Assembly: GCA_032622095.1 (NCBI GenBank)
Contig: CP136066.1
Coordinates: 202,576,978 to 202,640,977 of the forward strand
Direction of reading: 5' to 3'
Length of the DNA stretch: 64,000 nucleotides
DNA from: Siphonodentalium dalli
Taxonomy: Eukaryota; Mollusca; Scaphopoda; Gadilida; Siphonodentaliidae
Of the stretch, positions 6,001-56,264 are shown piece after piece. The notes beneath the pieces were generated by a model. The model was given only the letters and a program-made list of their open reading frames with translations, had not been told where the DNA came from and searched no databases. How positions within the stretch are numbered: position 1 is the first letter of the stretch; each line of letters opens with the position of its first letter. The translations under genes were made by a program, and so were the position numbers.

Positions 6001-9000
6001 CATTAACGACCACAGCGCAGTATCCCCCAATAACACACAAACCCAGTACAGTCATTAACGACCACAGTGCCGTATCCCTCAATAACACACAAACCCACTA
6101 CATTCATTAACGACCACAGCGCCTTATCCCTCAATAACACACAAACCCACTACATTCATTAACGACCACAGCGCCTTATCCCTCAATAACACACAAACCC
6201 AATACATTCATTAACGACCGCATCGCCTTATCCCTCAATAACACACAAACCCAATACATTCATTAACGTCCGCAGCGCCGTATCCCACAATAACACACAA
6301 ACCCAGTACATACATTAACGACCACAGCGCCTTATCCCTCAATAACACACAAACCCAATACATTCATTACCGACCGCAGCGCCTTATCCCTCAATAACAC
6401 ACAACCCCACTACATACATTAACTACCACAGCGCCGTATCCCTCAATAACACACAAACCCACTACATTCATTAACGACCACAGCGCCGTATCCCTCAATA
6501 ACACATAACCCACAACATTCATTAACGACCACAGCGCCGTATCCCTCATTAACACAAACACCCACTACATTCATTAACTACGACAGCGCCGTATCCCTCA
6601 ATAACACACAAACCCAGTACATTCATTAACGACCACAGCGCCGTATCCCTCAATAACACACAAACCCACTACATTCATTAACGACCACAGCGCCGTATCC
6701 CTCAATAACACACAAACCCACTACATTCATTAACGACCACAGCGCCTTATCCCTCAATAACACACAAACCCACTACATGCATTAACGAACACAGCGCCGT
6801 ATCCCTAAATAACACACAAACCCACTACATTCATTAACGACCACAGCGCCGTATCCCTCAATAACACACAAACCTACTACATTCATTAACGACCACAGTG
6901 CCGTATCCCTCAATAACACACAAACCCAGTGCATTCATTAACGACCACAGGGCCGTATCCCTCAATAACACACAACCCACTACATTCATTAACGACCACA
7001 GCGCCGTATCCCTCAATAACACACAAACCCACTACATTCATTAACGACCACAGCGCCGTATCCCCCAATAACACACAAACCCTCTACATTCATTAACGAC
7101 CACAGCGCCGTATCGCTCAATAACACACAAACCCACTACATTCATTAACGACCACAGCGCCGTATCCCTCAATAACACACAAACCCACTACATTCATTAA
7201 CGACCACGGCGCCGTATCCCTCAATAACACACAAACCCACTACATTCATTAACGACCACAGCGCCGTATCCCTCAACAACACACAAACACACTACATTCA
7301 TTAACAACCACAGCGCCGTATCCCTCAATAACACACAAACCCACTACATTCATTAACGAACACAGCTACGTATCCCATCAATAACACACAAACCCACTAC
7401 ATTCATTAACGACCACAGCGACGTATCCCTCAATAACACACAAACCCACTACATTCATTAAATACCACAGCGCCGTATCCCTCCATAACACACAAACCCA
7501 CTACATTCATTAACGACCACAGCGCCGTATCCCTCAATAACACACAAACCCACTACATTCATTAACGACCACGGCGCCGTATCCCTCAATAACACACAAA
7601 CCCACTACATTCATTAACGACCACAGCGCCGTATCCCTCAACAACACACAAACACACTACATTCATTAACAACCACAGCGCCGTATCCCTCAATAACACA
7701 CAAACCCACTACATTCATTAACGAACACAGCTACGTATCCCATCAATAACACACAAACCCACTACATTCATTAACGACCACAGCGACGTATCCCTCAATA
7801 ACACACAAACCCACTACATTCATTAAATACCACAGCGCCGTATCCCTCAATAACACACAAACCCACTACATTCATAAACGACCACAGCGCCGTGTCCCTC
7901 AATAACACACAAACCCACTACATTCATTAACGACCGCAGCGCCGTATCCCCCAATAACACACAAACCCACTACATTCATTAACGACCACAGCGCCGTATC
8001 CCTCAATAACACACAAACCCACTACATTCATTAACGACCACAGCGCCGTATCCCTCAATAACACACAACCCCACTACATGCATTAACGACCGCAGCGCCG
8101 TATCCCTCAATAACACACAAACCCACTACATTCATTAACGACCACAGCGCCGTATCCCTCAATAACACACAAACCCACTACATTCATTAACGACCACATC
8201 GCCGTATCCCTCAATAACACACAAACCCACTACATTCACTAACGACCACAGCGCCGTATCCCTCAATAACACACAAACCCACTACATTCATTAACGACCA
8301 CAGCGCCGTATCCCTAAATAACACACAAACCCACTACATTCATTAACGACCACAGCGCCGTATCCCTCAATAACACACAAACCCACTACATTCATTAACG
8401 ACCACAGCGCCGTATCCCTCAATAACACACAAACCCACTACATTCATTAACGACCACAGCGCCGTATCCCTCAATAACACACAAACCCACTACATTCATT
8501 AACGACCACATCGCCGTATCCCTCAATAACACACAAACCCACTACATTCATTAACGACCACATCGCCGTATCCCTCAATAACACACAAACCCACTACATT
8601 CATTAACGACCACATCGCCGTATCCCTCAATAACACACAAACCCACTACATTCATTAACGACCACATCGCCGTATCCCTCAATAACACACAAACCCACTA
8701 CATTCATTAACGACCACATCGCCGTATCCCTCAATAACACACAAACCCACTACATTCATTAACGACCACATCGCCGTATCCCTCAATAACTCACAAACCC
8801 ACTACATTCATTAACGACCACATCGCCGTATCCCTCAATAACACACAAACCCACTACATTCATTAACGACCACATCGCCGTATCCCTCAATAACACACAA
8901 ACCCACTACATTCATTAACGACCACATCGCCGTATCCCTCAATAACACACAAACCCACTACATTCATTAACGACCACATCGCCGTATCCCTCAATAACAC

Positions 9001-12000
9001 ACAAACCCACTACATTCATTAACGACCACAGCGCCGTATCCCTCAATAACACACAAACCCACTACATTCATTAACGACCACAGCGCCGTATCCCCCAATA
9101 ACACACAAACCCTCTACATTCATTAACGACCACAGCGCCGTATCGCTCAATAACACACAAACCCACTACATTCATTAACGACCACAGCGCCGTATCCCTC
9201 AATAACACACAAACCCACTACATTCATTAACGACCACGGCGCCGTATCCCTCAATAACACACAAACCCACTACATTCATTAACGACCACAGCGCCGTATC
9301 CCTCAACAACACACAAACACACTACATTCATTAACAACCACAGCGCCGTATCCCTCAATAACACACAAACCCACTACATTCATTAACGAACACAGCTACG
9401 TATCCCATCAATAACACACAAACCCACTACATTCATTAACGACCACAGCGACGTATCCCTCAATAACACACAAACCCACTACATTCATTAAATACCACAG
9501 CGCCGTATCCCTCCATAACACACAAACCCACTACATTCATTAACGACCACAGCGCCGTATCCCTCAATAACACACAAACCCACTACATTCATTAACGACC
9601 ACGGCGCCGTATCCCTCAATAACACACAAACCCACTACATTCATTAACGACCACAGCGCCGTATCCCTCAACAACACACAAACACACTACATTCATTAAC
9701 AACCACAGCGCCGTATCCCTCAATAACACACAAACCCACTACATTCATTAACGAACACAGCTACGTATCCCATCAATAACACACAAACCCACTACATTCA
9801 TTAACGACCACAGCGACGTATCCCTCAATAACACACAAACCCACTACATTCATTAAATACCACAGCGCCGTATCCCTCAATAACACACAAACCCACTACA
9901 TTCATAAACGACCACAGCGCCGTGTCCCTCAATAACACACAAACCCACTACATTCATTAACGACCGCAGCGCCGTATCCCCCAATAACACACAAACCCAC
10001 TACATTCATTAACGACCACAGCGCCGTATCCCTCAATAACACACAAACCCACTACATTCATTAACGACCACAGCGCCGTATCCCTCAATAACACACAACC
10101 CCACTACATGCATTAACGACCGCAGCGCCGTATCCCTCAATAACACACAAACCCACTACATTCATTAACGACCACAGCGCCGTATCCCTCAATAACACAC
10201 AAACCCACTACATTCATTAACGACCACATCGCCGTATCCCTCAATAACACACAAACCCACTACATTCACTAACGACCACAGCGCCGTATCCCTCAATAAC
10301 ACACAAACCCACTACATTCATTAACGACCACAGCGCCGTATCCCTAAATAACACACAAACCCACTACATTCATTAACGACCACAGCGCCGTATCCCTCAA
10401 TAACACACAAACCCACTACATTCATTAACGACCACAGCGCCGTATCCCTCAATAACACACAAACCCACTACATTCATTAACGACCACAGCGCCGTATCCC
10501 TCAATAACACACAAACCCACTACATTCATTAACGACCACATCGCCGTATCCCTCAATAACACACAAACCCACTACATTCATTAACGACCACATCGCCGTA
10601 TCCCTCAATAACACACAAACCCACTACATTCATTAACGACCACATCGCCGTATCCCTCAATAACACACAAACCCACTACATTCATTAACGACCACATCGC
10701 CGTATCCCTCAATAACACACAAACCCACTACATTCATTAACGACCACATCGCCGTATCCCTCAATAACACACAAACCCACTACATTCATTAACGACCACA
10801 TCGCCGTATCCCTCAATAACTCACAAACCCACTACATTCATTAACGACCACATCGCCGTATCCCTCAATAACACACAAACCCACTACATTCATTAACGAC
10901 CACATCGCCGTATCCCTCAATAACACACAAACCCACTACATTCATTAACGACCACATCGCCGTATCCCTCAATAACACACAAACCCACTACATTCATTAA
11001 CGACCACATCGCCGTATCCCTCAATAACACACAAACCCACTACATTCATTAACGACCACAGCGCCGTATCCCTCAATAACACACAAACCCACTACATTCA
11101 TTAACGACCACATCGCCGTATCCCTCAATAACACACAAACCCACTACATTCATTAACGACCACATCGCCGTATCCCTCAATAACACACAAACCCACTACA
11201 TTCATTAACGACCACATCGCCGTATCCCTCAATAACACACAAACCCACTACATTCATTAACGACCACATCGCCGTATCCCTCAATAACACACAAACCCAC
11301 TACATTCATTAACGACCACATCGCCGTATCCCTCAATAACACACAAACCCACTACATTCATTAACGACCACATCGCCGTATCCCTCAATAACACACAAAC
11401 CCACTACATTCATTAACGACCACATCGCCGTATCCCTCAATAACACACAAACCCACTACATTCATTAACGACCACATCGCCGTATCCCTCAATAACACAC
11501 AAACCCACTACATTCATTAACGACCACATCGCCGTATCCCTCAATAACACACAAACCCACTACATTCATTAACGACCACATCGCCGTATCCCTCAATAAC
11601 ACACAAACCCACTACATTCATTAACGACCACAGCGCCGTATCCCTCAATAACACACAAACCCACTACATTCAGTAACGACCACATCGCCGTATCCCTCAA
11701 TAACACACAAACCCACTACATTCACTAACGACCACAGCGCCGTATCCCTCAATAACACACAAACCCACTACATTCATTAACGACCACAGCGCCGTATCCC
11801 TCAATAACACACAAACCCACTACATTCATTAACGACCACAGCGCCGTATCCCTCAATAACACACAAACCCACTACATTCATTAACGACCACAGCGCCGTA
11901 TCCCTCAATAACACACAAACCCACTACATTCATTAACGACCACAGCGCCGTATCCCTCAATAACACACAACCCCACTACATGCATTAACGACCGCAGCGC

Positions 12001-14168
12001 CGTATCCCTCAATAACACACAAACCCACTACATTCATTAACGACCACAGCGCCGTATCCCTCAATAACACACAAACCCACTACATTCATTAACGACCACA
12101 TCGCCGTATCCCTCAATAACACACAAACCCACTACATTCACTAACGACCACAGCGCCGTATCCCTCAATAACACACAAACCCACTACATTCATTAACGAC
12201 CACAGCGCCGTATCCCTCAATAACACACAAACCCACTACATTCATTAACGACCACAGCGCCGTATCCCTCAATAACACACAACCCCACTACATTCATTAA
12301 CGACCACAGCGCCTTATCCCTCAATAACACACAAACCCAATACATTCATTGACGACCACAGCGCCGTATCCCTCAATAACACACAAACCCACTACATTCA
12401 TTATCGACCACAGCGCCGTATCCCACAATAACACACAAACCTACTACATTCATTAACGACCACTGCGCAGTATCCCTCAAAAGCACACAAACCCAGTACA
12501 TTCACTAACAACTATATCGCCGTATCCCTCAATAACACACAAACCCACTACATTCATTAACGACCACAGCACCGTATCACTCAATAACACACAAACCCAC
12601 TATATTCATTAACGACCACAGCGCATTATCCCTCAATAACACACAAACCCACTACATTCATTAACGACCACAGCGCCGTATCCCTCAATAACACACAAAC
12701 CCACTACATTCATTAACAACCACAGCGCCGTATCCCCCAATAACACACAACCCCACTACATTCACTAACGACCACAGCGCCGTATCCCTCAATAACACAC
12801 AAACCCAATACATTCATTGACGACCACAGCGCCGTATCCCTCAATAACACACAAACCCACTACATTCATTAACGACCACATCTCCGTATCCCTCAATAAC
12901 ACACAAACCCACTACATTCATTAACGACCACAGCGCCGTATCCCTCAATAACACACAAACCCACTACATTCTTTAACGACCACAGCGCCGTATCCCCCAA
13001 TAACACAAAAACCCACTACATTCATTAACGACCACAGCGCCGTATCCCTCAATAACACAAAACCCCACTACATTCATTAACGACCACAGCGCCGTATCTC
13101 CCAATAACACACAAACCCACTACATTCATTAACGACCACAGCGCAGTATCCCTCAATAACACACAAACCCAGTACAGTCATTAACGACCACAGCGCCGTA
13201 TCCCTCAATAACACACAAACCCACTACATTCATTAACGACCACAGCACCTTATCCCTCAATAACACACAAACCCACTACATTCATTAACGACCACAGCGC
13301 CTTATCCCTCAATAACACACAAACCCAATACATTCATTAACGACCGCAGCGCCTTATCCCTCAATAACACACAAACCCAATACATTCATTAACGTCCGCA
13401 GCGCCGTATCCCACAATAACACACAAACCTACTACATTCATTAACGACCACAGCGCCGTATCCCTCAAAAACACACAAACCCAGTACATACATTAACGAC
13501 CACAGCGCCTTATCCCTCAATAACACACAAACCCACTACATCCATTAACGACCGCAGCGCCTTATCCCTCAATAACACACAACCCAACTACATACATTAA
13601 CTACCACAGCGCCGTATCCCTCAATAACACACAAACCCACTACATTCATTAACGACCACAGCGCCGTATCCCTCAATGACACATAACCCACTACAGTCAT
13701 TAACGACCACAGCGCCGTATCCCTCAATAACACACAAACCCACTACATTCATTAACGACCACAGCGCCTTATCCCTCAATAACACACAAACCCACTACAT
13801 GCATTAACGACCACAGCGCCGTATCCCTCAATAACACACAAACCCACTACATCCATTAACGACCACAGCGCCGTATCCCTCAATAACACACAAACCCACT
13901 ACATTCATTAACGACCACAGCGCCGTATCCCTCAATAACACACAAACCCACTACATTCATTAACGACCACAGCGCCGTATCCCTCAATAACACACAAACC
14001 CACTACATTCATTAACGACCACAGCGCCGTATCCCTCAATAACACACAAACCCAGTACATTCATTAACGACCACAGCGCCGTATCCCTCAATAACACACA
14101 ACCCACTACATTCATTAACGACCACAGCGCCGTATCCCTCAATAACACACAAACCCACTACATTCATT
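1..14168. repeat. 52-bp satellite array, about 272 copies
   Basis: Head-to-tail array of a 52-bp unit (it begins acacacaaacccactacatt). It starts before base 1 and stops at about 14168. Most units differ by only 0-3 bases. Marker variants (for example 'catcgcc' for 'cagcgcc', 'catgcattaacgaccgcag', 'gctacgtatcccatcaat') recur at fixed spacing, so the array has a higher-order structure. One block repeats with an offset of 1767 bp (markers at 1501 and 3268); another repeats at 2030 bp (about 7061-9090 and 9091-11100). All six frames are closed by stops. It lies inside intron 4 of the sulfatase gene if that gene continues at lower coordinates. Confidence 0.98.
7061..11100. repeat. Two near-identical 2030-bp higher-order repeats of the 52-bp satellite
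   Basis: Every marker variant I compared in the first block reappears 2030 bp later: 'ccctctacatt' at 7080/9110, 'ctccataaca' at 7481/9511, 'acggcgccgt' at 7571/9601, 'taactcacaaa' at 8788/10818. 2030 is 39 units of 52 bp plus two extra bases, explained by the one-base-longer 'cccatcaataac' units, of which each block holds two. The match breaks near 11100, where 'cagcgcc' becomes 'catcgcc'. This implies a recent block duplication. Confidence 0.9.
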
Positions 14169-14336: not shown

Positions 14337-14621
14337 CCGAAACTGGCCGATATCTCGCCGCATGAATATCGTCGCCGCAGTAGTGAACCATAAACTTGTG
14401 TGGGGTGTTTTTCACCTTCCCCGTGAGGAGGGGCATTAAGTCTTTACCATCGATTATACGATCATTTGGAAGCTTAGCTCCAATCATTTTAGCAATCGTC
14501 GGCAGAACGTCCATAAAGATGGATGGTTCATCAATAACAGTCCTGGGTGCGATTTTAGCTGGCCACTTTATAATCGTCGGGACACGTATAGCTCCCTCGA
14601 CTGCGCCGTGAGTTTTACCTC
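14337..14621 (-). CDS. Steryl-sulfatase-like gene, exon 4 (partial gene, C-terminal end missing)
   Basis: Fourth recognisable coding exon, 285 nt, phase 1 at both ends. It is preceded by the acceptor TATTACAG|GA and followed by the donor TCGG|GTAAAT. It encodes residues 366-459 of the spliced product. It opens with GGKTHGAVEGAIRVP, which matches the family segment holding the catalytic lysine (K367 here, Lys368 in human STS). It continues with MDVLPTIAKMIGA, LPNDRIIDGKDLMPLL and VHYCGDDIHAARYRP, the usual C-terminal subdomain order. The open frame would run to a stop at 14296, but the donor and the family alignment suggest splicing at 14337. Human STS has about 120 more residues after this point. 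They are not found in 1-14336 and probably lie beyond the satellite. An oddity is 'EGAIR' where the family normally has 'EGGIR'. Confidence 0.93.
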
Positions 14622-17704: not shown

Positions 17705-19068
17705 GTACAGAAGGAGTCCTATAACTACTCATTGATAATACTTTAGTGTAGAAAGGGTTAAACTTCTTATCTGAACATTTCCTATGGGATAACTACTCAT
17801 CAATTATGCTTTAGTACAGAAAGGGTTAAACTTATTATTTGAACATTTCCTATGGGACAACTACTCATCGATGATGCTTTAGTATAGAAAGGGTTAAACG
17901 TATTATTTGAACATTTCCCATGGGACAACTACTCATCAATGATGCTTTGGTATAGAAAGGGTTAAACTTATTATCTGAATCTTTCCTATGGGATAACTAC
18001 TCATCAATGATGCTTTAGAATAGAAAGGGTTAAACGTATTATTTGAACATTTCCTATGGGACAACTACTTATCAATGATGCTTTAGTATAGAAAGGGTTA
18101 AACTTATTATCTGAATCTTTCCTATGGGATACTACTCATCAATAATGCTTTAGTGTAGAAAGGGTTAAACTTATTATCTGAACATTTCCTTAGGGTTAAC
18201 TACTCATCAATGATGCTTTAGTGCAGAAAGGGTTAAACTTATTATTTGAACATTTCCTATGGGACAACTACTCATCGATGATGCTTTAGTATAGAAAGGG
18301 TTAAACGTATTATTTGAACATTTTCTATGGAACAACTACTCATCAATGTTGCTTTAGTATAGAAAAAGTTACACTTATTATCTGAATCTTTCCTATGGGA
18401 TAACTACTCATCAATGTTGCTTTAGAATAGAAAGGGTTAAACTTATTATTTGAACATTTCCTATGGGATGACTACTCATCAATGTTATTTTAGTATAGAA
18501 AGGGTTAAACTTATTATCTGAACATTTCCTATGGGATAACTACTCATCAATGTTACTTTAGTTTAGAAAGGGTTAAACTTATTATCTGATCATTCACTAT
18601 GGGATAACTACTCATCAATGATGCTTTAGTATATAAAGGGTTAAACTTATTAACTGAACATTTCCTATGGGATGACTACTCATCAATGTTACTTTAGTAT
18701 AGAAAGGGTTAAACGTATTATTTGAACATTTTCTATGGGACAACTACTCATCAATGATGCTTTAGTATAGAAAGGGTTAAACTTATTATCTGAACATTTC
18801 CTATGGGATAACTACTCATCAATGTTACTTTAGTTTAGAAAGGGTTAAACTTATTATCTGATCGTTCCCTATGGGATAACTACTCATCAATGATGCTTTA
18901 GTATAGAAACTGTTAAACTTATTAGGTGAACATTTTCTATGAGATGACTACTCATCAATGTTACTTTAGTATAGAAAGGGTTAAACTTATTATCTGAACA
19001 TTTCCTATGGGATTACTACTCACCAATGTTACTTTAGTATAGAAATGGTTAAACTTATTATCTGATTA
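17705..19068. repeat. 68-bp tandem array, about 20 copies
   Basis: Unit of 68 bp containing 'gggttaaacttattatctga', 'cctatgggataactactcat' and 'gctttagtatagaaa'. Successive 'gggttaaa' starts fall at 17755 and 17823. Units differ at scattered positions, and 'acaactac' and 'ataactac' versions alternate. A diverged single copy lies upstream at about 17200-17275. Located in intron 3 of the sulfatase gene. Confidence 0.95.
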
Positions 19069-19440: not shown

Positions 19441-20139
19441 CTGTGTAAATACCATTATAACCTCCATCAATCTCTCCATGGGCGCCGGTTTCTTCTAAAT
19501 GCGCTCCATTGTCAGATGAGAAATAAGAGAACGTGTTATGACCAAGGCCTTTGTCATCCAAAGCTGTCAGAATCTGCCCAACACCCCAGTCCAACTCCAT
19601 CACGCCGTCGCCATAGCGACCGTGTTCGGATTTACCAGTAAAGTCGTTATTCGTTGCTATGTGAGTGTGCACATGTTGCCAACCAACAACCAATAAGAAT
19701 GGGTCTCGGTCCTGTTTTCTATCCTCGAGAAACTTTACACTTTCCCAAACAAATCGCCGGGTGAGATTCTTTAATACCATTGGCTGTTCAATCACCTCTG
19801 TGTTCCGTAGAATAACACTATTTGTCAGGTTTAAGTTCCAACTAACCAGCCCAATGAACCACAAAGGGAGAACGGTTACAAGAAACACAAGTATTGCCAT
19901 CGTGCAACTGATCACTCCATGACGTATGAGCAAGAACAGACAAGAGAGTACAACACACGATACTGTCACCCAGCGAGTCCGCCACATAGGAAAGGCAGAG
20001 TCGCCTAATTCCACACCCTCATTTCCGAAGTCCTTGACATTTGTCCAAGGGATGCCGTAATAATAATCAAAACCTTGGTTCGTTGGTCCATGTTCATTGT
20101 CGCCTTCTCGTTCTTTGTTCAGCCCAAGGTGCCACTTGC
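19441..20139 (-). CDS. Steryl-sulfatase-like gene, exon 3 (core with membrane hairpin)
   Basis: Large internal exon, 699 nt, phase 1 at both ends. Acceptor TTTGCAG|GC, donor ACAG|GTAAGT. It encodes residues 133-364. It starts with KWHLGLN, giving the catalytic lysine and histidine (K133, H135; STS Lys134, His136). Two hydrophobic stretches at about 189-204 and 208-230, separated by a short loop, match the pair of membrane helices that anchor the STS group in the ER membrane and distinguish it from soluble arylsulfatases. FLLVVGWQHVHTH (279-291) carries the conserved histidine, and YFSSDNGAHLEE (337-348) the metal ligands D341 and N342. The exon ends in GEIDGGYNGIYTG, which joins exon 4 in frame. 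The expected activity is hydrolysis of sulfate esters, possibly steroid sulfates. The substrate is inferred from family only. Confidence 0.95.
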
Positions 20140-26100: not shown

Positions 26101-26586
26101 TTAAAGGTACTCAATCCGATCAGAGGGTCCCCATCTCAACATATTCCAACAACAACAATCCGATCAGAGGGTCCTATCTTACTATTTTTTGGCTTTGGGG
26201 GTAAAAAATATTTGATTAGAGTCGAGGAACCCATCAAACAAAGCTCAGAGTTATTAGATATTGATTTTTGAAATTTGTTATTTTCTCGAGATGATTACTA
26301 ATAATTGCATTCAATTTCGTAATCTGCTCGAGATGTGTACACCAAAACACTATTCAAACAGACAAGGATGGATAACTCTAAAATCAAGTGGTAATAATAA
26401 CGCAATTTTGACTGTGTTCTGGGCCAGAAAGTATTCCCGATAATGAAAATAATAGATTTCTAAAATCGATATATAACAAATCTGAGCTTTGATGGGTGAC
26501 TTCCTCGACTCGAATCAAATATTTTTGACCCCCGAAGCCATTGAAATAGTAATTGAGAGGAGTTTTATCGGATTGAGTACCTTTAA
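26101..26586. mobile_element. Foldback MITE, family E (TTAA ends), copy 1
   Basis: Starts 'ttaaaggtactcaatccgat' and ends with the complementary 'atcggattgagtacctttaa'. The arms carry 'ggctttgggggtaaaaaata', 'tttgattagagtcgaggaac' and their complements. It ends 39 bp downstream of the sulfatase exon 2 donor. It belongs to a family with six copies in the window. TTAA at both ends suggests a TTAA-targeting superfamily such as piggyBac or Kolobok, which I cannot separate. Confidence 0.75.
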
Positions 26587-26625: not shown

Positions 26626-26754
26626 CTATGTATGCAGTCTTGTAGCCGACCGACTTCGCGAGCTCACCGAAGGTTGTTTCGTTGCTAGGCAGACCACCAG
26701 ACGACGCAAGGAAGACAAGAAACCGTACCAGGTTCTTATTCAAAGGCGCCATTC
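26626..26754 (-). CDS. Steryl-sulfatase-like gene, exon 2
   Basis: Small internal exon, 129 nt, phase 1 at both ends. Acceptor TCTAATGTAG|GA, donor ACATAG|GTAAC. It encodes residues 90-131: MAPLNKNLVRFLVFLASSGG and LPSNETTFGELAKSVGYKTAYI. It matches the family segment between the formylglycine helix and the catalytic Lys-x-His (in STS '...ASSGGLPTDEITF...'). The conserved ASSGGLP and the GYKTAYIG run into exon 3's KWHLG confirm both junctions. Skipping this exon would keep the reading frame but remove the stretch leading to the active-site lysine. The flanking intron 39 bp downstream holds a foldback MITE. Confidence 0.93.
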
Positions 26755-26993: not shown

Positions 26994-27385
26994 CCCTTTA
27001 CCCAACAGAACGGCCCTGTGCCAATGCATTATCTTATATATGCGAGTCGACCATAGGTCGCCTCGCATATATAAGAGAATGCATTGGCATAACACATATT
27101 AAAAATGATAAAATTGTCAAAGAATGTAGAAAAATATTATAAAACTTGTTAAAAAATGTAAGAATTTTTTTTTTTAGGCCAATGCATTCTCTTATATATG
27201 CGAGGCGACATATGGTCGACTCGCATATATAAGATAATGCATTGGCACAGGGCATAACTGTAACCATCACAATGTTGTCAATGAACCGGTTCCAATGATA
27301 TCCATATTTGTATGGTGTTATTGAGACAGACCGAAGATATTTTAGGCTGTTGAAGCTTTATTTGGGCGTTTTGTTGGGTTAAGGG
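26994..27385. mobile_element. piggyBac-like MITE with nested palindromic element
   Basis: TTAA at 26990-26993 and 27386-27389 flanks an inverted pair, 'ccctttacccaacagaacgg' on the left and its near-complement 'cgttttgttgggttaaggg' on the right. TTAA target duplications and CCC...GGG ends are the piggyBac hallmark. The family A element at 27014-27252 is nested inside. Confidence 0.65.
27014..27252. mobile_element. Family A nested-palindrome element, copy 1 (short form)
   Basis: Each terminal arm is itself a palindrome of about 70 bp: 'gccaatgcattctcttatat' ... 'atgcgagtcgaccataggtc' ... 'ttggc'. The two arms are also inverse complements of each other, ending in 'ccctgtgcc' and 'ggcacaggg'. 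The centre is AT-rich ('attttttttttta'). No coding capacity. Confidence 0.75.
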
Positions 27386-28323: not shown

Positions 28324-28773
28324 TTAAAGGTACTCAATCCGAATTAACGCTCGCAAATTACTATTTCCTTGGCTTCGGGGGTAAACAATATTTGATTCGA
28401 GTCGATGAACCAATCCATCAAAGCTAGGAGTGATCAGATATCGATGTTTGAAATCTATTGTATTAATTTTATGTGGCCCAGTAAACCGTCGACGAGAAGA
28501 ACTTATCATGACCAGATAGCGGAAGAAGATCGATAACTCTAAAATCCAGTGGCTTTTTTGTCAGATATTTGACAACCGGCAAAATTTCGTTGAACAAAAC
28601 GTTGATAAATAACAGGTTTTAGGCAATTTTATACTATAGTTGACTGTGGTTAGCATTATTTTTGGACAATTAATCGATTCTGATAACTGAAGCGGAATTT
28701 CAAAAAATTGTGTTGTTGTTGTTGTTGGAATATGATGATATGGGGACCGTAGAATCGGATTGAGTGCCTTTAA
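28324..28773. mobile_element. Foldback MITE, family E, copy 2
   Basis: TTAA at both ends ('ttaaaggtactcaatccgaa' to 'gaatcggattgagtgccttt'). The left arm has 'ggcttcgggggtaaacaata'. The right part holds 'aaaacgttgataaataacag' and (TTG)n 'tgttgttgttgttg' before the end. Confidence 0.75.
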
Positions 28774-29146: not shown

Positions 29147-29598
29147 TTAAAGGTACTCATTCCGATCAGACGCTCCTAAATTACTATTTCTTTGGCTTCG
29201 GGGGTAAACAATATTTGATTCGAGTCGAGGAACCCACCCACCAAAGCTCAGAGTGCTCAGATGTCGATTTTTGAAGTTTGTTATTTCTCGAGATGTGTAA
29301 TAATATATGGCCCAGAAACACGTGGTCAAACGGAAGGTCTCGGAAAAAATTTCGGATGAAGATGGATAACTCGAAAATTAAGTATCAATTAAGTGATAAT
29401 ATGGCCATATTTTGTTGAACAAAATGTTGATAAATAACAAGTTTTGGGAAATTTGATACCGTAGTTGACAGTGGTTAACATTATTTCGTTGCAATAAATC
29501 GATTCTGATCACTAAAGCGTATTTTGAAGAGCTGCTGTTGTTGTTGTTGTTGTATCTTGATGATATGGGGACCGTCTGATCGGATTGAGTACTTTTAA
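29147..29598. mobile_element. Foldback MITE, family E, copy 3
   Basis: 'ttaaaggtactcattccgat' to 'gatcggattgagtactttta'. It aligns along its length with copy 2. Its right end touches the start of the exon-derived minisatellite. Confidence 0.75.
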
Positions 29599-31470
29599 GA
29601 TTTAACCCGATGCATACCTGAGCGAATGGGATATCTGCCGGTGAGAAGCGCCGCTCTATTTAACCTGATGCATACCTGAGCGAATGGGATATCTGCCGGT
29701 TAGAAGCGCCGCTCTACTGGGGAAGCACATCTTAAGACTTAACCTTATGCATACCTGAGCGAATGGGATATCTGCCGGTGAGAAGCGCCGCTCTACGGGG
29801 GGGGGGGGCACATCTTAAGATTTAACCCGATGAATACCTGAGCGAATGGGATATCTGCCGGTGAGAATGCATACCTGAGCGAATGGGATATCTGCCGGTG
29901 AGAAGCGCCGCTCTATTTAACCTGATGAATACCTGAGCGAATGGGATATCTGCCGGTTAGAAGCGCCGCTCTACTGGGGGAGATGCATACCTGAGCGAAT
30001 GGGATATCTGCCGGTGAGAAGCGCCCTGGTGCATACCTGAGCGAATGGGATATCTGCCGGTGAGAATGCATACATGAGCGAATGGGATATCTGTCGGTGA
30101 GAAGCGCCGCTCTAGTAGGGATGCATACCTGAGCGAATGGGATATCTGCCGGTGAGAAGCGCTGCTCTACTGGGGAAGATGCATACCCGAGCGAATGGGA
30201 TATCTGCCGGTGAGAAGCGCCGCTCTACTGGGGAAGATGCATACCTGAGCGAATAGGATATCTGCCGGTGAAAATGCATACCTGAGCGAATGGGATATCT
30301 GCCGGTGAGAAGCGCTGCTCTACTGGGGATGCATACCTGAGCGAATGGGATATCTGCCGGTGAGAAGCGCTGCTCTACTGGGGATGCATACCTGAGCGAA
30401 TGGGATATATACCGGTGAGAAGCGCTGCTCTAGTAGGGATGCATACCTGAGCGAATGGGATATCGGCCGGTGAGAAGCGCTCCTCTAGTAGGGATGCATA
30501 CCTGAGCGAATAGGATATCTGCCGGTGAGAATGCATACCTGAGCGAATGGGATATCTGCCGGTGAGAAGCGCTGCTCTACTGGGGATGCATACCTGAGCG
30601 AATGGGATATCTGCCGGTGAGAAGCGCTGCTCTACTGGGGATGCATACCTGAGCGAATGGGATATCTGCCGGTGAGAAGCGCTGCTCTACTGGGGATGCA
30701 TACCGGAGCGAATGGGATATCTGCCGGTGAGAAGCGCTGCTCTAGTAGGGATGCATACCTGAGCGAATGGGATATCTGCCGATGAGAAGCGCTCCTCTAG
30801 TAGGGATGCTTACCTGAGCGAATGGGATATCTGCCGGTGAGAAGCGCTGCTCTAGTAGGGATGCATACCTGAGCGAATGGGATATCTGCCGGTGAGAATG
30901 CATACCTGAGCGAATGGGATATCTGCCGATGAGAAGCGCTCCTCTAGTAGGGATGCTTACCTGAGCGAATGGGATATCTGCCGGTGAGAAGCGCTGCTCT
31001 AGTAGGGATGCATACCTGAGCGAATAGGATATCTGCCGGTGAGAATGCATACCTGAGCGAATGGGATATCTGCCGGTGAGAAGCGCTGCTCTACTGGGGA
31101 TGAATACCTGAGCGAATGGGATATCTGCCGGTGAGAAGCGCTGCTCTACTGGGGATGCATACCTGAGCGAATGGGATATCTGCCGGTGAGAAGCGCTGCT
31201 CTACTGGGGATGCATACCTGAGCGAATGGGATATCTGCCGGTGAGAATGCATACCTGAGCGAATGGGATATCTGCCGGTGAGAATGCATACCTGAGCGAA
31301 TGGGATATCTGCCAGTGAGAAGCGCCGCTCTAGTAGGGATGCATACATGAGCGAATGGGATATCTGCCGGTGAGAATGCATACCTGAGCGAATGGGATAT
31401 CTGCCGGTGAGAATGCATACCTGAGCGAATGGGATATCTGCCGGTGAGAAGCGCTGCTCTACTGGGGAAG
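29599..31470 (-). repeat. Minisatellite made of exon 1 3' ends with splice donors, about 36 units
   Basis: Units of 37 or 55 bp (some 58) that copy the last 40 or so bases of sulfatase exon 1 plus the first bases of intron 1. In sense (minus) orientation a unit reads CCCCAGTAGAGCAGCGCTTC, then the bases for TGRYPIRS, then TCAG|GTATGCATC. I count 37 occurrences of the 'gagcgaat' anchor between 29599 and 31490, the last being the real exon end. About 32 of the extra copies keep an intact CAG|GT donor. The exceptions I saw are near 30073, 30186, 30713 and 31346. Short open frames of 90-102 codons across the array are by-products. Confidence 0.95.
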
Positions 31471-31478
31471 ATGCATAC

Positions 31479-31743
31479 CTGAGCGAATGGGATATCTGCC
31501 GGTGAGAAGCGCTGCTCTACTGGGGGAGCACAGGCTAGCTGCTGCGAAGTGCTGAGTCAGCTTGGCTCCATCCGCCGCCATTTTGTCCAGATGAGGAGTC
31601 GGGATCGTCTTGTTACCAAAGCAACCAACATCGCCTATCCCGAGATCATCGGCTATAAACACCACTATGTTCGGCCTAGTGGCCGATTTGGACAACGTAG
31701 ACGGGAGACACATCGCAAACGCCAGAAGAAGCGCCACCAACAT
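31479..31743 (-). CDS. Steryl-sulfatase-like gene, exon 1 with start codon and formylglycine motif
   Basis: First coding exon, 265 nt, ending in phase 1 at the donor CTCAG|GTATGC. I chose the ATG at 31743 because it starts a good signal peptide ([18 protein letters not shown], about 19 residues) directly before the mature [18 protein letters not shown], which holds the metal-binding D32 and D33. The exon ends with [19 protein letters not shown]72 is the cysteine expected to be converted to formylglycine in the C-x-P-S-R motif, with R76 beside it (STS 75 and 79). The frame is open upstream to an ATG at 31860, but that part would place about 39 unrelated residues before the signal peptide and overlaps a LINE. 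The bases before the ATG, TTACTAATTATAG|G, resemble a splice acceptor, so a non-coding 5' exon further upstream is possible. Confidence 0.93.
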
Positions 31744-31804
31744 CCTATAATTAGTAAGGGTAATGAATTTATGAGCGTCAACTTGAATAAACATAATATG
31801 AGAC

Positions 31805-33010
31805 ATATATGCAGAACGGTAGCATCCCAGGAGACTGGCAGAAAGCCCTGGATACACCACTATTCAAAAAGGGCTGTCGTTTCTCACCAAGCAACTACCA
31901 TCCAGTCTCGCCCACCTCAATCCTTTCCAAGAGCCTGGAACACATCGTCCACGACCACGTCATGAAATATCTGACACAGAACAACATGCTGACTGACGCA
32001 CAACACGGTTTTCGGAAAAACCGATCTTGTGAAACACAGCTGATCACCGCAATCAACGACCTTGCTGGAGGCCTCAGCAACGGGACCAATACGATTGTGT
32101 TTTCCAAAATTGTGCCAAGGCATTTGACAAAGTACCACACCAGCGTCTGCTAATGACACTCAAATAACTCGGAATAGACGGCACGTTGCATGGTTGGATA
32201 GCGGACTTCCTGAAATATCGCACTCAGCAAGTTGTTTTGGAGGGTAATCTCTCCCGTCCGACAGGGATTTATATTTGGCCCATTGCTGTTCTCCATCTTC
32301 ATCAACGACCTCACGGACACAATACAACAACAACAACCAAACTCATGATGATGACTGATGACTGCTTAATATACAGGAAAATATCATCATCCTTGGACCA
32401 ACTAGCACTTCAAAAAGACATCGACAGCCTACAGTCATGGGAGAACACATGGCAAATGAAATTCAACCCGGACAAATGTTGCAGATATTCAACAAAGAAA
32501 ATCCCATGCCGGCCTCATATACCATTCACCAACACGCACTAGAGGTTGTGGAATCTGTCAAGTACCTCGGCATCACCATTGATAAACGGCTGGAATGGAA
32601 CACACATGTCAACATCACAAAAAAGGCGACAGGCACCTGCGCATTTCTGCGACGAAACATCAGTTGTTGTCCAAAAACAGTTAGAGAGAAATGCTATACT
32701 ACAATAGTGCGACCACAACTAGAATACGCGTCTACTATTTGACACCCGCACACAGTACACGATATCGATGCAATAGAGACAGCCCAGCGGAGAGGCGCAA
32801 GGTTTGTCAAGAATGACCACAGTAATTGGAGCCGGCCATCTGAAATGTTGAGTCACTGTGATGGGAATCACTAGCTGATCTCCGATATAAGGCATATTTA
32901 GTAATGTTCCACCACACAGCCAACCGATCTGTGGACATCCCAGCCGAGGGATACCTACAACTGGTCCAGTCTACGTGCGACATGGAAAGAAGATCGGGTC
33001 CTGATGAAAT
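31805..33010 (+). pseudogene. LINE (CR1/Jockey-like) reverse transcriptase, decayed
   Basis: The frames joined by eye give the classic order: [55 protein letters not shown]-like text (here 'MLTDAQHGFRKNRSC'), HGWIADFLKYRTQQVVLEGN, TDDCLIYRK (the catalytic F-A-D-D box, altered), WQMKFNPDKC, VKYLGITIDKRLEWNTHVN and VRPQLEYAST, then AIETAQRRGARFVKN. At least three frame changes, and loss of the first two residues of the FADD box, make it inactive. No endonuclease domain is present, so it is 5'-truncated, as usual for LINEs. It starts about 60 bp upstream of the sulfatase ATG, in the opposite orientation. Confidence 0.9.
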
Positions 33011-44959: not shown

Positions 44960-46117
44960 TCTCATATATATTTTGATGACCTCTGTTTGTTTGTGTGTCT
45001 GTATGTTTGTCTGTCATTAATACAAATCTACGATTCTCGACCGATCGGGACGAAACTTGGTACGTGCGTGTAGTTTGACCAGGCGGTGGACGTTGTCGTA
45101 TTGGCGAGCCCGTGCGGCGCCCGCTTCGCGCATGCGCAGACGAGATCTCGGAAACGGGTGGAGCTATCGACTTGAAATTTGCTATGTGAATGTATCTTGC
45201 CCCGGATACGAATTTTATCGGGTCGCCGAGCCCGTGCGACGCCAGCTTCGCGCATGCGCAGACGAGATCTCGCAAACGGGTGGAGCTATCGACTTGAAAT
45301 TTGCTATGTGAATGTACCCGTGCGACGCCAAAAAAATCTCAATTTCAAATCGGGTCGCCGAGCCCGTGGGACGCCAGCTTCGCTCGGAAATTGCAGGCCA
45401 GATCTTGGTACGTGCGTGTAGTTTGACCAGGCGGTAGACGTTGTCGTATTGGCGAGCCCGTGCGGCGCCCGCTTCGCGCATGCGCAGACGAGATATCGGA
45501 AACGGGTGGAGCTATCGACTTGAAATTTGCTTTGTGAATGTATCTTGCCCCGGATACGAATTTTATCGGGTCGCCGAGCCCGCGCGACACCAGCTTCGCG
45601 CATGCGCAGACGAGATCTCGGAAACGGGTGGAGCTATCGACTTGAAATTTGCTATGTGAATGTATCTTGCCCCGGATACGAATTTTATCGGGTCGCCGAG
45701 ACCGGGCGGTGGACGTTGTCGTATTGGTGAGCCAGTGCGGCGCCCGCTTCGCGCATGCGCAGACGAGATCTCGGAAACGGGCGGAGCTATCGACTTGAAA
45801 TTTGCTATGTGAATGTATCTTGCCCCGGATACGAATTTTATCGGGTCGCCGAGCCCGTGCGACGCCAGCTTCGCGCATGCACAGACGAGATCTCGGAAAC
45901 GGGTGGAGCTATCGACTTGAAATTTGCTATGTGAATGTATCTTGCCCCGGATACGAATTTTATCGGGTCGCCGAGCCCGTGCGACGCAGCTTCGCGCATG
46001 CGCAGACCAGATCTCGGAAACGGGTAGAGCTATCGACTTGAATTTTGGTTTTTGAATAGACCGGACAACAAAATTTGGTTTTTGAATAGCCTGGACAACG
46101 TCGGGCTCATCGGCTAG
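44960..46117 (+). mobile_element. Helitron-like copy 4 (type I, 122-bp internal repeats)
   Basis: Starts TCTCATATATATTTTGATGA, then a (TGTC)n-like tract and 'ctacgattctcgaccgatcg', followed by about eight units of a 122-bp repeat ('gggtcgccgagcccgtgcga', 'cgcgcatgcgcagacgagat', 'ggagctatcgacttgaaatt', 'ttgccccggatacgaatttt'). It ends 'cgtcgggctcatcggctag' at 46117. Confidence 0.65.
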
Positions 46118-46674
46118 TCTCATATATATTTTGAAGACCTCTGTTTGTTTGTTTGTCTGTCTGTCTGTCTGTCATTAATACAAATCTACGATTCTCGACC
46201 GATCGGGACGAAACTTGGTACGTGAGTGTAGTTTGACCAGGCGGTGAACGTTGTCGTATTGGCGAGCCCGTGCGGCGCCCGCTTCGCGCATGCGCAGACG
46301 AGATCTCGGAAACGGGTGGAGCTATCGACTTGAAATTTGTTATGTGAATGTATCTTGCCCCGGATACGAATTTTATCGGGTCACCGAGCCCGTGCGACGT
46401 CAGCTTCGCGCATGCGCAGACGAGATCTCGGAAACGGGTGGAGCTATCGACTTGAAATTTGGTATGTGAATGTATCTTGCCCCGGATAAGAATTTTATCG
46501 GGTCACCGAGCCCGTGCGACGTCAGCTTCGCGCATGCGCAGACGAGATCTCGGAAACGGGTGGAGCTATCGACTTGAAATTTGGTATGTGAATGTATCTT
46601 GCCCCGGATAAGAATTTTATCGACTTCAAATTTTGTTTTTGAATAGCCCGGACAACGTCGGGCTAATCGGCTAG
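46118..46674 (+). mobile_element. Helitron-like copy 5 (type I)
   Basis: Begins TCTCATATATATTTTGAAGA directly after the CTAG of copy 4. About three 122-bp units. Ends 'cgtcgggctaatcggctag' at 46674. Confidence 0.65.
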
Positions 46675-47080
46675 TCTCATATATATTTTGAAGACCTCTG
46701 TCTGTATGTTTGTTTGTCTGTCTGTCTGTCTGTCTGTCATTAATACAAATCTACGATTCTCGACCGATCGGGACGAAACTTGGTACGTGTGTGTAGTTTG
46801 ACCAGGCGGTGAACGTTGTCGTATTGGCGAGCCCGTGCGGCGCCCGCTTCGCGCATGCGCAGACGAGATCTCGGAAACGGGTGGAGCTATCGACTTGAAA
46901 TTTGCTATGTGAATGTATCTTGCCCCGGATACGAATTTTATCGGGTCGCCGAGCCCGTGCGACACCAGCTTCGCGCATGCGCAGACTAGATCTCGGAAAC
47001 GGGTGGAGCTATCGACTTGAAATTTGGTTTTTGAATAGCCCGGACAACGTCGCCCGGACAACGTCGGGCTCATCGGCTAG
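46675..47080 (+). mobile_element. Helitron-like copy 6 (type I)
   Basis: Begins TCTCATATATATTTTGAAGA directly after copy 5. Between one and two 122-bp units. Ends 'cgtcgggctcatcggctag' at 47080, with the hairpin segment partly doubled at 47038-47070. Confidence 0.65.
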
Positions 47081-48622
47081 TCTCATATATATTTTTGAAG
47101 ACCTCTGTTTGTTTGTTTGTCTGTATGTATGTTTGTCTGTCATTTATACAAATCTACGATTCTCGACCGATCGGGACGAAACTTAGTACGTGTGTGTAGT
47201 TTGACCAGGCGGTCGACCTTGTCGTATTGGCGAGCCCGTGCGGCGCCCGTGCAGCGCATGCGCAGACGATATCTCGGAAACGGGTGGAGCTATCGACTTG
47301 AAATTTGCTATGTGAATGTATCTTGCCCCGGATACGAATTTTATCGGGTCGCCGAGCCCGTGCGACGCCAGCTTCGCGCATGCGCAGAAGAGATCTCGGA
47401 AACGGGTGGAGCTATCGACTTGAAATTTGCTATGTGAATGTATCTTGCCCCGGATACGAATTTTATCAGGTCGCCGAGCCCGTGTGACGCCAGCTTCGCG
47501 CATGCGCAGACCAGATCTCGGAAACGGGTGGAGCTATCGACTTGAAATTTGGTGTGTGAATGTATCTTGCCCGGATACGAATTTTATCGGGTCGCCGAGC
47601 CCGTGCGACGCCAGCTTCGCGCATGCGCAGACGAGATCTCGGAAACGGGTGAAGGTATCGACTTGAAATTTGCTATGTGAATGTATGTTGCCCCGGATAC
47701 GAATTTTATCGGGTCACCGACCCCGTGCGACGCCAGCTTCGCGCATGCGCAGACCAGATCTCGGAAACGGGTGGAGCTATCGACTTGAAATTTGGTGTGT
47801 GAATGTATCTTGCCCCGGATACGAATTTTATCCACCGCTCACTACGTCTATTGACTACATAAAGCATGCCTAATACACGTTACATTTATTACGTCAATGT
47901 AGCTTTATTAGGTCAACGTAGCTTTATTAGGTTAGTACTACTTTTATGACGTAATTTGATCTGCAAATTGCGCAGGTAACTAGGGACGTCAACTGGCCTT
48001 AATGACGTCATTGTGATTTCAGAACGTTTTTATCGTGTATAATTCACTAAAATCATTCGTAAAATGATATATGTTTTAGCTCTAAAACATCTATAAATTC
48101 TCAGAACAAGGTCTGCTTAAAATAAATGTAAAAATGCCAACGAACTATTTCGCTCTAAGCTGCACTCCGGTTTTCCCACGTCATGAATGCTAATTGGTTT
48201 GCTTGACCTTATAAATGTAATGGCGTCATCGAAGTAACGAATGTAAAACTGAGGAAAATGACAGATTTACCTCACAAAAGGCAAGTTTTGTGCGATGGAT
48301 AAATAAAATATGTAGCTAATGTCGTCGCTTAAACTGTTTATATCCGCTCGGGGGATTTATTGGACTCGGCAGAGCCTCGCCCAATAGATGCTCAAATCCC
48401 CCTCACGGACATAAACAATTTAAGCGAAGACACTATCTACATATTATATATTTATCGGGTCGCCGTGAATGTATCTTGCCCCGGATACGATTTTTATCGG
48501 GTCGCCGAGCCCGTGCGACGCAAGCTACGCGCATGCGCAGACCAGATCTCGGAAACGGGTGGAGCTATCTACTTGAAATTTGGTTTTTGAATAGCCCGGA
48601 CAACGTCGGGCTCATCGACTAG
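47081..48622 (+). mobile_element. Helitron-like copy 7 (type I), interrupted
   Basis: Begins TCTCATATATATTTTTGAAG directly after copy 6 and has about five 122-bp units. It is interrupted at about 47832-48457 by unrelated sequence, then resumes ('gtcgccgtgaatgtatcttg') and ends 'cgtcgggctcatcgactag' at 48622. Confidence 0.6.
47832..48457. mobile_element. Unclassified insertion within Helitron-like copy 7
   Basis: About 626 bp of AT-rich sequence with none of the 122-bp repeats, bordered on both sides by 'tttatc'. The right third folds back: 'gtcgcttaaactgtttatat' and 'gggggattt' pair with 'aaatccccc' and 'cggacataaacaatttaagc'. No coding sequence. A SINE or foldback element is possible. Confidence 0.45.
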
Positions 48623-51584: not shown

Positions 51585-51880
51585 TTACAGGTACTCAATC
51601 CGATCAGACGCTCCCAAATTACTATCTCTTTGGCTTCGGGGGTAAACAATATTTGATTCGAGTCGAGGAACCTACCCATCAAAGCTCAGAGTGATCAGAT
51701 ATCGATTTTTGAAGTTTATTATTTCAATTGTGTGTGGACCAGAAGCACGAGGTCAAACGGACGGTCCTGCAGATAAAGATGGATAACTCTAAAATCAAGT
51801 GGTTATTATTACCACTTGATTTTAGAGTTATCCTTCTTTATCTGCAAGACCGTCCGTTTGACCTCGTGCTAGTCAATGGC
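51585..51880. mobile_element. Foldback MITE, family E, copy 4 (partial)
   Basis: The left end is 'caggtactcaatccgatcag', with 'ggcttcgggggtaaacaata' as in other copies. Its centre is a tight hairpin: 'gataactctaaaatcaagtg' pairs with 'cacttgattttagagttatc'. The right half is short. Confidence 0.7.
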
Positions 51881-53560: not shown

Positions 53561-54335
53561 TATCTTTTTAATGAAGATTATAATTGAAATATGATAGGAC
53601 CTAATACATAGCCTTGAGGCACTCCGGCTGAGATTGTTTCCCAGTTTGAAGCATCTGATTTCATAACAACTTGTTGTTTTCTATCATGCAGATTATCGCG
53701 GACGCGTGTCAGTTAAAGCTGGGACTAGTATACTAGTCCCAGGTTAAAGTTTGTAAAGTAATCCGTCGCGCCACACGCTGTCAAAAGCTATGCTTAAATT
53801 ATATATCGAAAAATAACATGCGGGTGTCGCATTCATCGTCTAGTGATTTAACCAGGCCGTGAAAATTAAAACTCGGTGATATTTTGTAGAATGCTGCCTG
53901 GTTTTCGGTTAGAATATTATTCGATTGAAGATAAGACATATAAGGTGCTTAGTTATAGATTTTTCTAAGATTTTACCGAGAACGCTCAATGATATTGTCG
54001 GTAATTCTCTGTATTGCTTCTGTCTCCTTTTTATGAATTGGCACTACGTTCGCCATTTTCCATTCTACAAGAAAGTAAGTTTATTCAAGAATACGTAAAT
54101 TAACGAGGGGGGGGGGTGTGGTACTGAGACTTAGACAATTTTTCAGAACGCTTGGATTTATTTGATATGACCCCGATGCTTTGCCAACTTTGATTTTGTT
54201 CAGAGCATAAAATTCTTCTATTTTGTCAAAGAGAATACAATCGAGTTTGGGTTTATTTGCTTCATCACTTAGCATTTCTTGTAGTTCTTTGGTTATAATA
54301 TGCCAGATTCCTTCGTTGTGTTTAAAGGTACTCAA
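53561..54335 (-). pseudogene. LINE reverse transcriptase, decayed
   Basis: From 54335 downward: ALNKIKVGKASGSYQINPSV (the usual RT N-terminal 'KA.G.D.I.P..L' text), then EWKMANVVPIHKKE, later a motif A remnant (SIAFDSVWRDGLLYKL) and GVPQGYVLGPIIFQL. The catalytic order is right, but the frame changes several times and has internal stops. The 5' part of the element is missing. The family E copy at 54322 overlaps its upstream edge. Confidence 0.8.
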
Positions 54336-54790
54336 TCCGATTCGATTGTCCCCATATAATCAGATTCGATCAACAACAGCAATTTTAGAAATGCCACTTC
54401 AGTTATCAGAATCCATTAATTGCCCAAATATAATCCAGTAATTGCCCAAGTATAATGCTTACCAGTCAAATATAGTATAAACTTGCCCGAAGCGTGTTAT
54501 TTATCAACATGTTGTTGGACGAAATTTGGCCTCATTATCAACACAAAGCCTCTTGATTTTAGAGTTATCCATCTTCATCCGCAATTTGGTCAGAGACCAT
54601 TGGCTCGCGTGGACTTTTTACTGGGCAACTAATAAGTCAGAGATGGTGAAAAATAATAGATTTCAAAAATCGATATCTAATAACTCTGTGCTTTGATATA
54701 GGTGGGTTCCTCGACTCGAATAAAATATTTTTAACCCCCGAATCCAAATAGATAGTAATCGAGGGGTGCTTAATCGGATTATGTACTTTA
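54322..54790. mobile_element. Foldback MITE, family E, copy 5
   Basis: Starts 'ttaaaggtactcaatccgat' and ends 'atcggattatgtacttta'. The interior carries 'gataataatga'-free diverged sequence and the complement of the 'ggcttcgggggtaaa' block ('tttttaacccccgaatcc'). Confidence 0.7.
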
Positions 54791-55924: not shown

Positions 55925-56264
55925 TTAAAGGTACTCAATCCCATCAGACGCTCCTATATTACTATTTCTTTGGCTTCGGGGGTAAAAAATATAATGATTC
56001 CAGTCGAGGAACCCACCCATCAAAGCTCAGATCGATCAGATATCAATTTTTGAAGTTTGTGATTTCTATTGTTTTTGGGACAGAAACACGAGGTTTCTGT
56101 CTGTTTCTGTCCCAAAAACAATAGAAATCGCAAACTTCAAAAATCGATATCTGATCAATCTGAACTTTGATGGGTAGGTTCCTCGACTCGAATCAAATAT
56201 TTTTTACCCCCGAAGCCAAAGAAATAGTAATATAGGAGCGTCTGATCGGATTGAGTACCTTTAA
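55925..56264. mobile_element. Foldback MITE, family E, copy 6
   Basis: 340 bp, almost fully palindromic around 56095. The left arm 'ttaaaggtactcaatcccat' matches the right arm '...gatcggattgagtaccttta'. Cleanest copy in the window and the best template for the family. Confidence 0.85.

Follow-up and report, generated by a model that had tools for sequence, protein, structure and literature searches.

An intronic minisatellite derived from the exon 1 end and splice donor of a steryl-sulfatase relative in Siphonodentalium dalli

The host gene and the anatomy of the array

The window, that is, the whole stretch of 64,000 nucleotides analysed here, carries on its minus strand four exons of a steryl-sulfatase relative, which were derived from open reading frames and from reading of the sequence (Table 1). 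Joined via the donor at 31478, the four exons yield a frame that stays open over 459 codons, and their boundaries are GT-AG. The product falls into the steryl-sulfatase group by its best match, its CxPxR signature and its PF00884 match (2.6e-53), the best solved relatives being the steryl-sulfatase chains 8eg3_A (E 2e-132) and 1p49_A (E 1.6e-131). The peptide at the end of exon 1 is what we take to be the sulfatase signature CxPxR, in agreement with the alignment to these two chains. The alignment to 8eg3_A ends at residue 457 of 583, and the remaining exons presumably lie past exon 4, beyond a 52-bp satellite of ~272 copies at 1-14168. This satellite, detected by Tandem Repeats Finder after exon 4, reaches the window edge and probably sits in an intron of the sulfatase gene. 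Upstream of exon 1, the plus strand holds fragmented reverse-transcriptase-like reading frames (31797-32742, identity by reading).

Table 1. Positions of the exons, splice sites and repeats at the sulfatase locus
Feature	Position	Strand	Basis
Exon 1 (coding part, 265 nt), ending in the sulfatase-signature peptide and the first base of a Gly codon	31479..31743	-	Spliced frame, steryl-sulfatase and PF00884 matches; paralog exon 93.6% identical
True 5' splice site TCAG|GTATGCATC and first bases of intron 1, which begins at 31478	31470..31478	-	Sole open frame among 37 donors; donor position as in L009, L010 and L011
Exon 2	26626..26754	-	Sequence reading, spliced frame, steryl-sulfatase match
Exon 3	19441..20139	-	Sequence reading, spliced frame, steryl-sulfatase match
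Exon 4	14337..14621	-	Sequence reading, spliced frame, steryl-sulfatase match
Minisatellite of exon-1 end and intron-1 start, 36 extra copies past the true donor	29600..31478	-	Core scan, Tandem Repeats Finder, unit comparison
In-frame TAG of the first extra copy; it ends the frame on read-through and from each of the 36 downstream donors	31459..31461	-	Frame translation
Array donor CAG|GTAAGC (intron position 1), predicted U1 pairing stronger than that of the true donor	30960	-	Duplex energy
Array donor CAG|GTAAGC (intron position 1), predicted U1 pairing stronger than that of the true donor	30813	-	Duplex energy
Distal end of the array, by appearance its oldest part: units of 58, 79 and 83 bp, in which 18-25 nt of the intron start remain, and a single 37-bp unit	29600..29932	-	Core scan, unit comparison
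Base following the AG of the acceptor-like site with the top score in the region; a C run in the 83-bp unit precedes it	29792	-	Rough acceptor score, 301 AGs
Short element with terminal inverted repeats (GTACTCAWTCCGATCAGACG) beside TTAA, adjoining the distal array end	29147..29600	.	Repeat comparison

Intron 1 is 4724 nt long, and ~1.88 kb of it is a tandem array. The 29-nt core GCAGATATCCCATTCGCTCAGGTATGCAT was searched for on the coding (minus) strand between 31800 and 29500, with up to seven mismatches allowed, and the scan returned 37 matches, namely the real exon end and 36 extra copies, whose donors run from 31478 (true) to 29617 (last copy). The 36 inter-donor units measure 37 bp (ten), 55 bp (seventeen), 58 bp (six), and 46, 79 and 83 bp (one each); by reading, the part of a unit that comes from the exon-1 end spans 29 to 54 nt, and the part from the intron start 8 to 25 nt. 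Tandem Repeats Finder detects the same array independently, with periods of 37, 55, 58 and others up to 257 bp. Tandem units within ~10-100 bp and variant copies place the array among the minisatellites. A chance origin is excluded by the ~1.9 kb of tandem units with a mean difference of 2.3 to 9.4% within a length class.

The GT dinucleotide is intact at all 37 donors, the true one included, and CAG|GT is present in 33 of them. The donor 9-mers are CAG|GTATGC (28 copies), CAG|GTATTC (3), CAG|GTAAGC (2), CAT|GTATGC (2), CCG|GTATGC (1) and CGG|GTATGC (1); the last four copies are the extra ones lacking CAG|GT (two CAT|GT, one CCG|GT and one CGG|GT). An earlier note on this DNA had counted 37 anchors with the real exon end, as the core scan also does, and had described an exon end with its donor amplified in its own intron, the true donor being first in transcription order; the 37 copies between 31478 and 29617 bear this out. 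Its figure of about 32 extra copies with exact CAG|GTATGC has to be corrected to 27, and the 32 fits those extra copies that keep CAG|GT (32/36), i.e. the 27 exact ones, three CAG|GTATTC and two CAG|GTAAGC. The assignment of 31478 as the true donor stands: among the 37 donors tested it alone joins the four exons into the open 459-codon frame, entering exon 2 at 26754, and three paralogs have a donor at the same position.

Paralogs, timing and growth of the array

Paralogs were sought by a DNA search with 301 bases in the 2.2-Gb genome of nine contigs, and the best candidates were scored. Besides the array, at least one close paralog (L009, 71 kb away, 96% identical over 228 bases) and at least two distant ones (L010 and L011, 71-72% identity) were found, all on the same contig. 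L009 is open, without stops; its exons 1-3 are 93.6, 91.5 and 93.8% identical to those of the array gene, with dN 0.046 and dS 0.145 over 364 codons. It has the donor TCAG|GTATGCACC in single copy, followed by an intron 1 of 2463 nt, and L010 and L011 each have a single CTCAG|GTATGG. The exon-end donor is thus single in all three paralogs read, and among the matches listed the array was seen in this gene alone. Since the same donor position is found in single copy in the close paralog and in the two distant ones, the splice site is old.

One substitution within the exon dates the array relative to the gene pair. An AGT/AGC serine codon has C in L009, L010 and L011 and T in the exon of the array gene, and T is found in all 26 scorable copies (25 extra copies and the exon); the other 11 of the 37, ten copies with 37-bp units and the single one with a 46-bp unit, lack the stretch searched for. 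As all 26 carry the lineage-derived T, the gene duplication and the T change predate either the origin of the array or its homogenisation with the exon. A 68-bp minisatellite in the intron after exon 3 (17721-19065) is common to the array gene and L009 (at 282-887), with 19.8 and 8.9 copies, respectively, and is therefore older than the gene pair or was copied between its members.

The longest intron parts occur among the distal copies, the 79-bp unit having GTATGCATAAGGTTAAGTCTTAAGATG, for instance; GTATGCAYCRG.TTAAA is common to the last copy and the L009 intron. At a GCA/GCG alanine codon, G is found in seven of the eight scored distal copies (indices 25-36) vs one of the 18 scored proximal ones, exon included. 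The mean pairwise difference is 2.3% for the ten 37-bp units, 5.4% for the seventeen 55-bp units and 9.4% for the six 58-bp units, in which two kinds are mixed. The block of unit types CCCbDD is found at two places, so growth proceeded at least partly by blocks. Internal deletions in the 79-bp unit would suffice to produce those of 58, 55 and 37 bp; the 83-bp unit has a longer C run. We infer that, after the split from the neighbouring paralog, a segment of ~79 bp, made up of the last 54 nt of exon 1 and the first 25 nt of intron 1, was probably duplicated in tandem, and that block duplication and loss of internal pieces would later have given the 58, 55 and 37 bp units. The exon TGTGC and AAGATGTGC of the unit suggest a short shared sequence at the breakpoints of the first duplication. 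The ancestral intron is not readable with certainty because the element with terminal inverted repeats now occupies the site.

This ~450-bp element (29147-29600) recurs, whole or in part, at 28324-28773, 26101-26303, 26417-26586, 51585-51800, 54322-54789, 55925-56067 and 56123-56264. A copy in the opposite orientation lies directly behind the L009 donor, and stretches resembling the element were present in 5 of 20 sampled genome places. Tandem Repeats Finder also reports several blocks of 122-bp tandem repeats at 45425-47832. Minisatellites (unit of at least 10 bp, at least five copies) make up 9,863 of 200,000 sampled bases (~5%) and occur in 8 of 20 arbitrary 10-kb places. We read an array over an exon end as a rare draw from this common process.

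Donors, reading frame and acceptors

Donor strength was calculated as the duplex energy with the 5' end of U1. The predicted U1 pairing of the true donor is -7.2 kcal/mol; 30 of the 36 extra donors equal it, two reach -11.0 and four are weaker (-1.9, -4.4, -6.5 and -1.9 kcal/mol). The other donors of the gene have -6.4, -14.0 and -7.6 kcal/mol. Between exon 1 and exon 2 there are 251 GT sites, and among the 214 outside the donor set five match or exceed the true donor. With 30 extra sites equal to the true donor and two above it, the use of decoys at some level is plausible, and site strength fails to explain why they would be ignored.

The donor positions are no better kept than the rest of the unit. 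In the 37-nt core, comparing the 36 extra copies with the exon, 9 of 324 donor cells are changed vs 14 of 1008 elsewhere, and 5 of 15 distinct changes fall within the nine donor positions of the 37 (binomial p 0.38, a rough test as the copies are related). The donor bases show no sign of selection, which leans against it; the intact GT in 37/37 is uninformative in this respect because so few changes have occurred overall.

RNA structure does not single out the array. Five 300-nt pieces were folded on both strands with 60 shuffles each, and their z scores are not unusual (-1.63 to +2.21 on the coding strand, -1.77 to +2.21 on both strands), so the idea of a structure hiding the decoys finds no support. 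Among four control pieces of the same intron three lie at -0.24 to +0.29, and that of 27000-27300 is at -20 owing to an inverted repeat. The latter is a nested one (27013-27253) with 80-nt arms that are 98% complementary, each arm being itself a hairpin with arms of 32-34 nt. In predicted accessibility the true donor (0.024) ranks second among the 37, behind one copy at 0.029, which would be a weak effect at best.

Read-through from exon 1 stops at the TAG (31461-31459) after 94 residues. All 36 downstream donors yield the identical product, and hence no array donor alone can lengthen the protein. An array that is coding throughout was also considered and rejected: units of 37, 46, 55, 58 and 79 bp are 1 mod 3 and that of 83 bp is 2 mod 3, so the reading frames rotate along the array. 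In the exon part of the core the distinct changes, few in number, are 3, 3 and 6 at codon positions 1, 2 and 3.

The array could contribute extra exon material only if one of its AGs served as an acceptor. When two acceptor motifs are considered, 125 acceptor-donor pairs of up to 300 nt result, and 26 of these keep the frame open as far as exon 4, with 25 to 83 residues added; when every array AG is taken as an acceptor, the frame stays open in 151 of 818 cassettes. Acceptors were scored with a rough textbook-like model over 301 AGs, 155 of them in the array. The true acceptor (3.12) ranks third of the 301, and one array AG scores higher (29792, 6.78), the other 154 lower. Together with the donor 29675, the acceptor-like site 29792 gives an open cassette of 117 nt, and by this model it would be the best lead for splicing within the array. 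The 55-bp unit holds a branch-like CTCAC motif.

Interpretation and related systems

Given the established anatomy of the array, its exon-end origin, its timing relative to one exon substitution, its consequences for the frame and the lack of excess donor conservation, we regard it as a neutral exon-derived minisatellite that is tolerated in the intron and would occasionally be used as a decoy; we put the probability of this reading at about 0.73. The array lies wholly within intron 1 and the donor before it is intact, so splicing from this first donor leaves the mature message as it was. The cap-binding complex aids U1 at the donor nearest the cap, and co-transcriptional splicing gives the earliest site an advantage; engineered duplications show that the choice of site depends on exon context and protein levels. 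The true donor, transcribed first and nearest to the cap, would be favoured in the same manner. Occasional decoy use would yield an early-stop message that would be destroyed, with the loss of some output, and the array would carry no selected function. The functional roles that the earlier note had suggested for the downstream copies are partly weakened; function is unproven, and none is the more likely case.

Tuning of the output by the decoys seems unlikely to us. It would have U1 bind many donors, with some transcripts spliced there, stopped at the TAG at 31461 and degraded, so that copy number would set expression, the array donors being used as IFI6 uses those of its minisatellite. All 32 extra CAG|GT sites have predicted U1 pairing at least equal to that of the true donor, the downstream donors all lead to the same early stop, and human IFI6 uses two downstream repeat units as donors, according to PMC4526556; however, the donor bases lack excess conservation, and the array is missing from the close paralog, whose exons 1-3 are intact. 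In-frame cassette exons, with the acceptor in one copy and a later donor adding residues beside the sulfatase signature and often repeating part of it, are very improbable. Their insert would adjoin the active site, and 154 of the 155 array AGs fall below the true acceptor in the rough model, against which stand the open frames (26/125 and 151/818), the CTCAC motif and the 117-nt cassette formed by the top-scoring AG of the region. That the array is an assembly artefact is exceedingly unlikely: its units come in six lengths, its copies have diverged, the unit types form a gradient along its length, higher-order blocks are present, and the distal flank agrees with the paralog. We give least credence to U1 recruitment as a shield of the transcript against premature end formation in the 4.7-kb first intron. 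Many U1-like sites do lie near the gene start, and five A(A/T)TAAA signals follow the array in intron 1, but L009 has eight such signals in its 2.46-kb intron 1 and no array; telescripting thus offers no contrast between the two genes.

Highly unlikely, too, is a scheme in which the decoy-spliced message is re-spliced from the true donor to the junction AG, with exact restoration of the normal message. Such a message holds an AG in the right register because 32 of the 36 extra copies end in CAG|GT, at once a donor and an acceptor-like AG, and the decoy junction CTCAG|GAATG is a possible 3' splice site for the true donor. The tract upstream of the unit-end AG (ATATCCCATTCGCTC) is fair, with 11 pyrimidines in 15 by reading; the acceptor score of the unit-end AGs is 0.69 in 30 of the 32 CAG|GT copies and 2.51 in two, vs 3.12 for the true acceptor. 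Another AG lies between CTCAC and the unit end, which disfavours CTCAC as their branch. If re-splicing did occur, the units of the array could be removed seamlessly one after another, which would be an extreme example, found in nature, of re-splicing via zero-length exons; the tolerance of so many decoys would be accounted for as well. PMC5126111 and PMC2773006 deal with recursive splicing with zero-length exons.

The re-splicing scheme shares its logic with the model of intron birth by tandem AGGT duplication, as given in PMC4974935 and PMC3629103. These name the Rogers model, ATP2A1, fission yeast SPOG_01682 and SOCG_00815, whose introns are made up of tandem repeats, and potato RdRp, with a duplication that spans an intron-exon boundary; the proto splice site is given as AGGT in PMC4974935 and as AGGC in PMC3629103. 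Tandem AG|GT copies are the common feature, and in principle a stretch running from one copy's GT to the AG of another copy further on could be excised tracelessly. In the cases described there a new intron was made, whereas the 37 copies here sit in an old one. A new intron would be missing in relatives; L009 shares both the donor and the acceptor position of intron 1, and L010 and L011 share the donor position.

The repeat unit of IFI6 is shorter than that of the array. Human IFI6 (6-16, G1P3) is the closest precedent found: it has an exon-end minisatellite of which downstream repeat units serve as donors, and three mRNAs result (PMC4526556); its minisatellite paper is that of Turri, Cuin and Porter 1995, a title cited in PMC3618361. 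An exon-end minisatellite supplying several splice donors is common to both genes, and the units of the array likewise carry a donor continuous with the exon end. The extra donors of IFI6 are described there as used and as giving isoforms, whereas the later donors of the array gene would all give an early stop. The array also differs in its derivation from a catalytic exon and in the early stop after the first donor. The earlier note had called arrays of this type unusual, which is fair, although IFI6 is a direct precedent; a literature search for exon-derived minisatellites with donor sites found none. With ordinary intronic minisatellites the array shares its unit sizes, its growth by blocks and its abundance of counterparts in the same genome, and it differs from them in a unit that derives from a coding exon and its splice site.

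How a cell settles on one of several identical 5' splice sites has been studied by means of engineered duplications. At the sulfatase locus, a single coding exon is followed by 37 near-identical sites of natural origin, two of which surpass the true one in predicted U1 pairing, and a single-copy paralog nearby can serve as a control. The array is therefore a natural test of whether order, distance from the cap or strength decides the choice of a 5' splice site.
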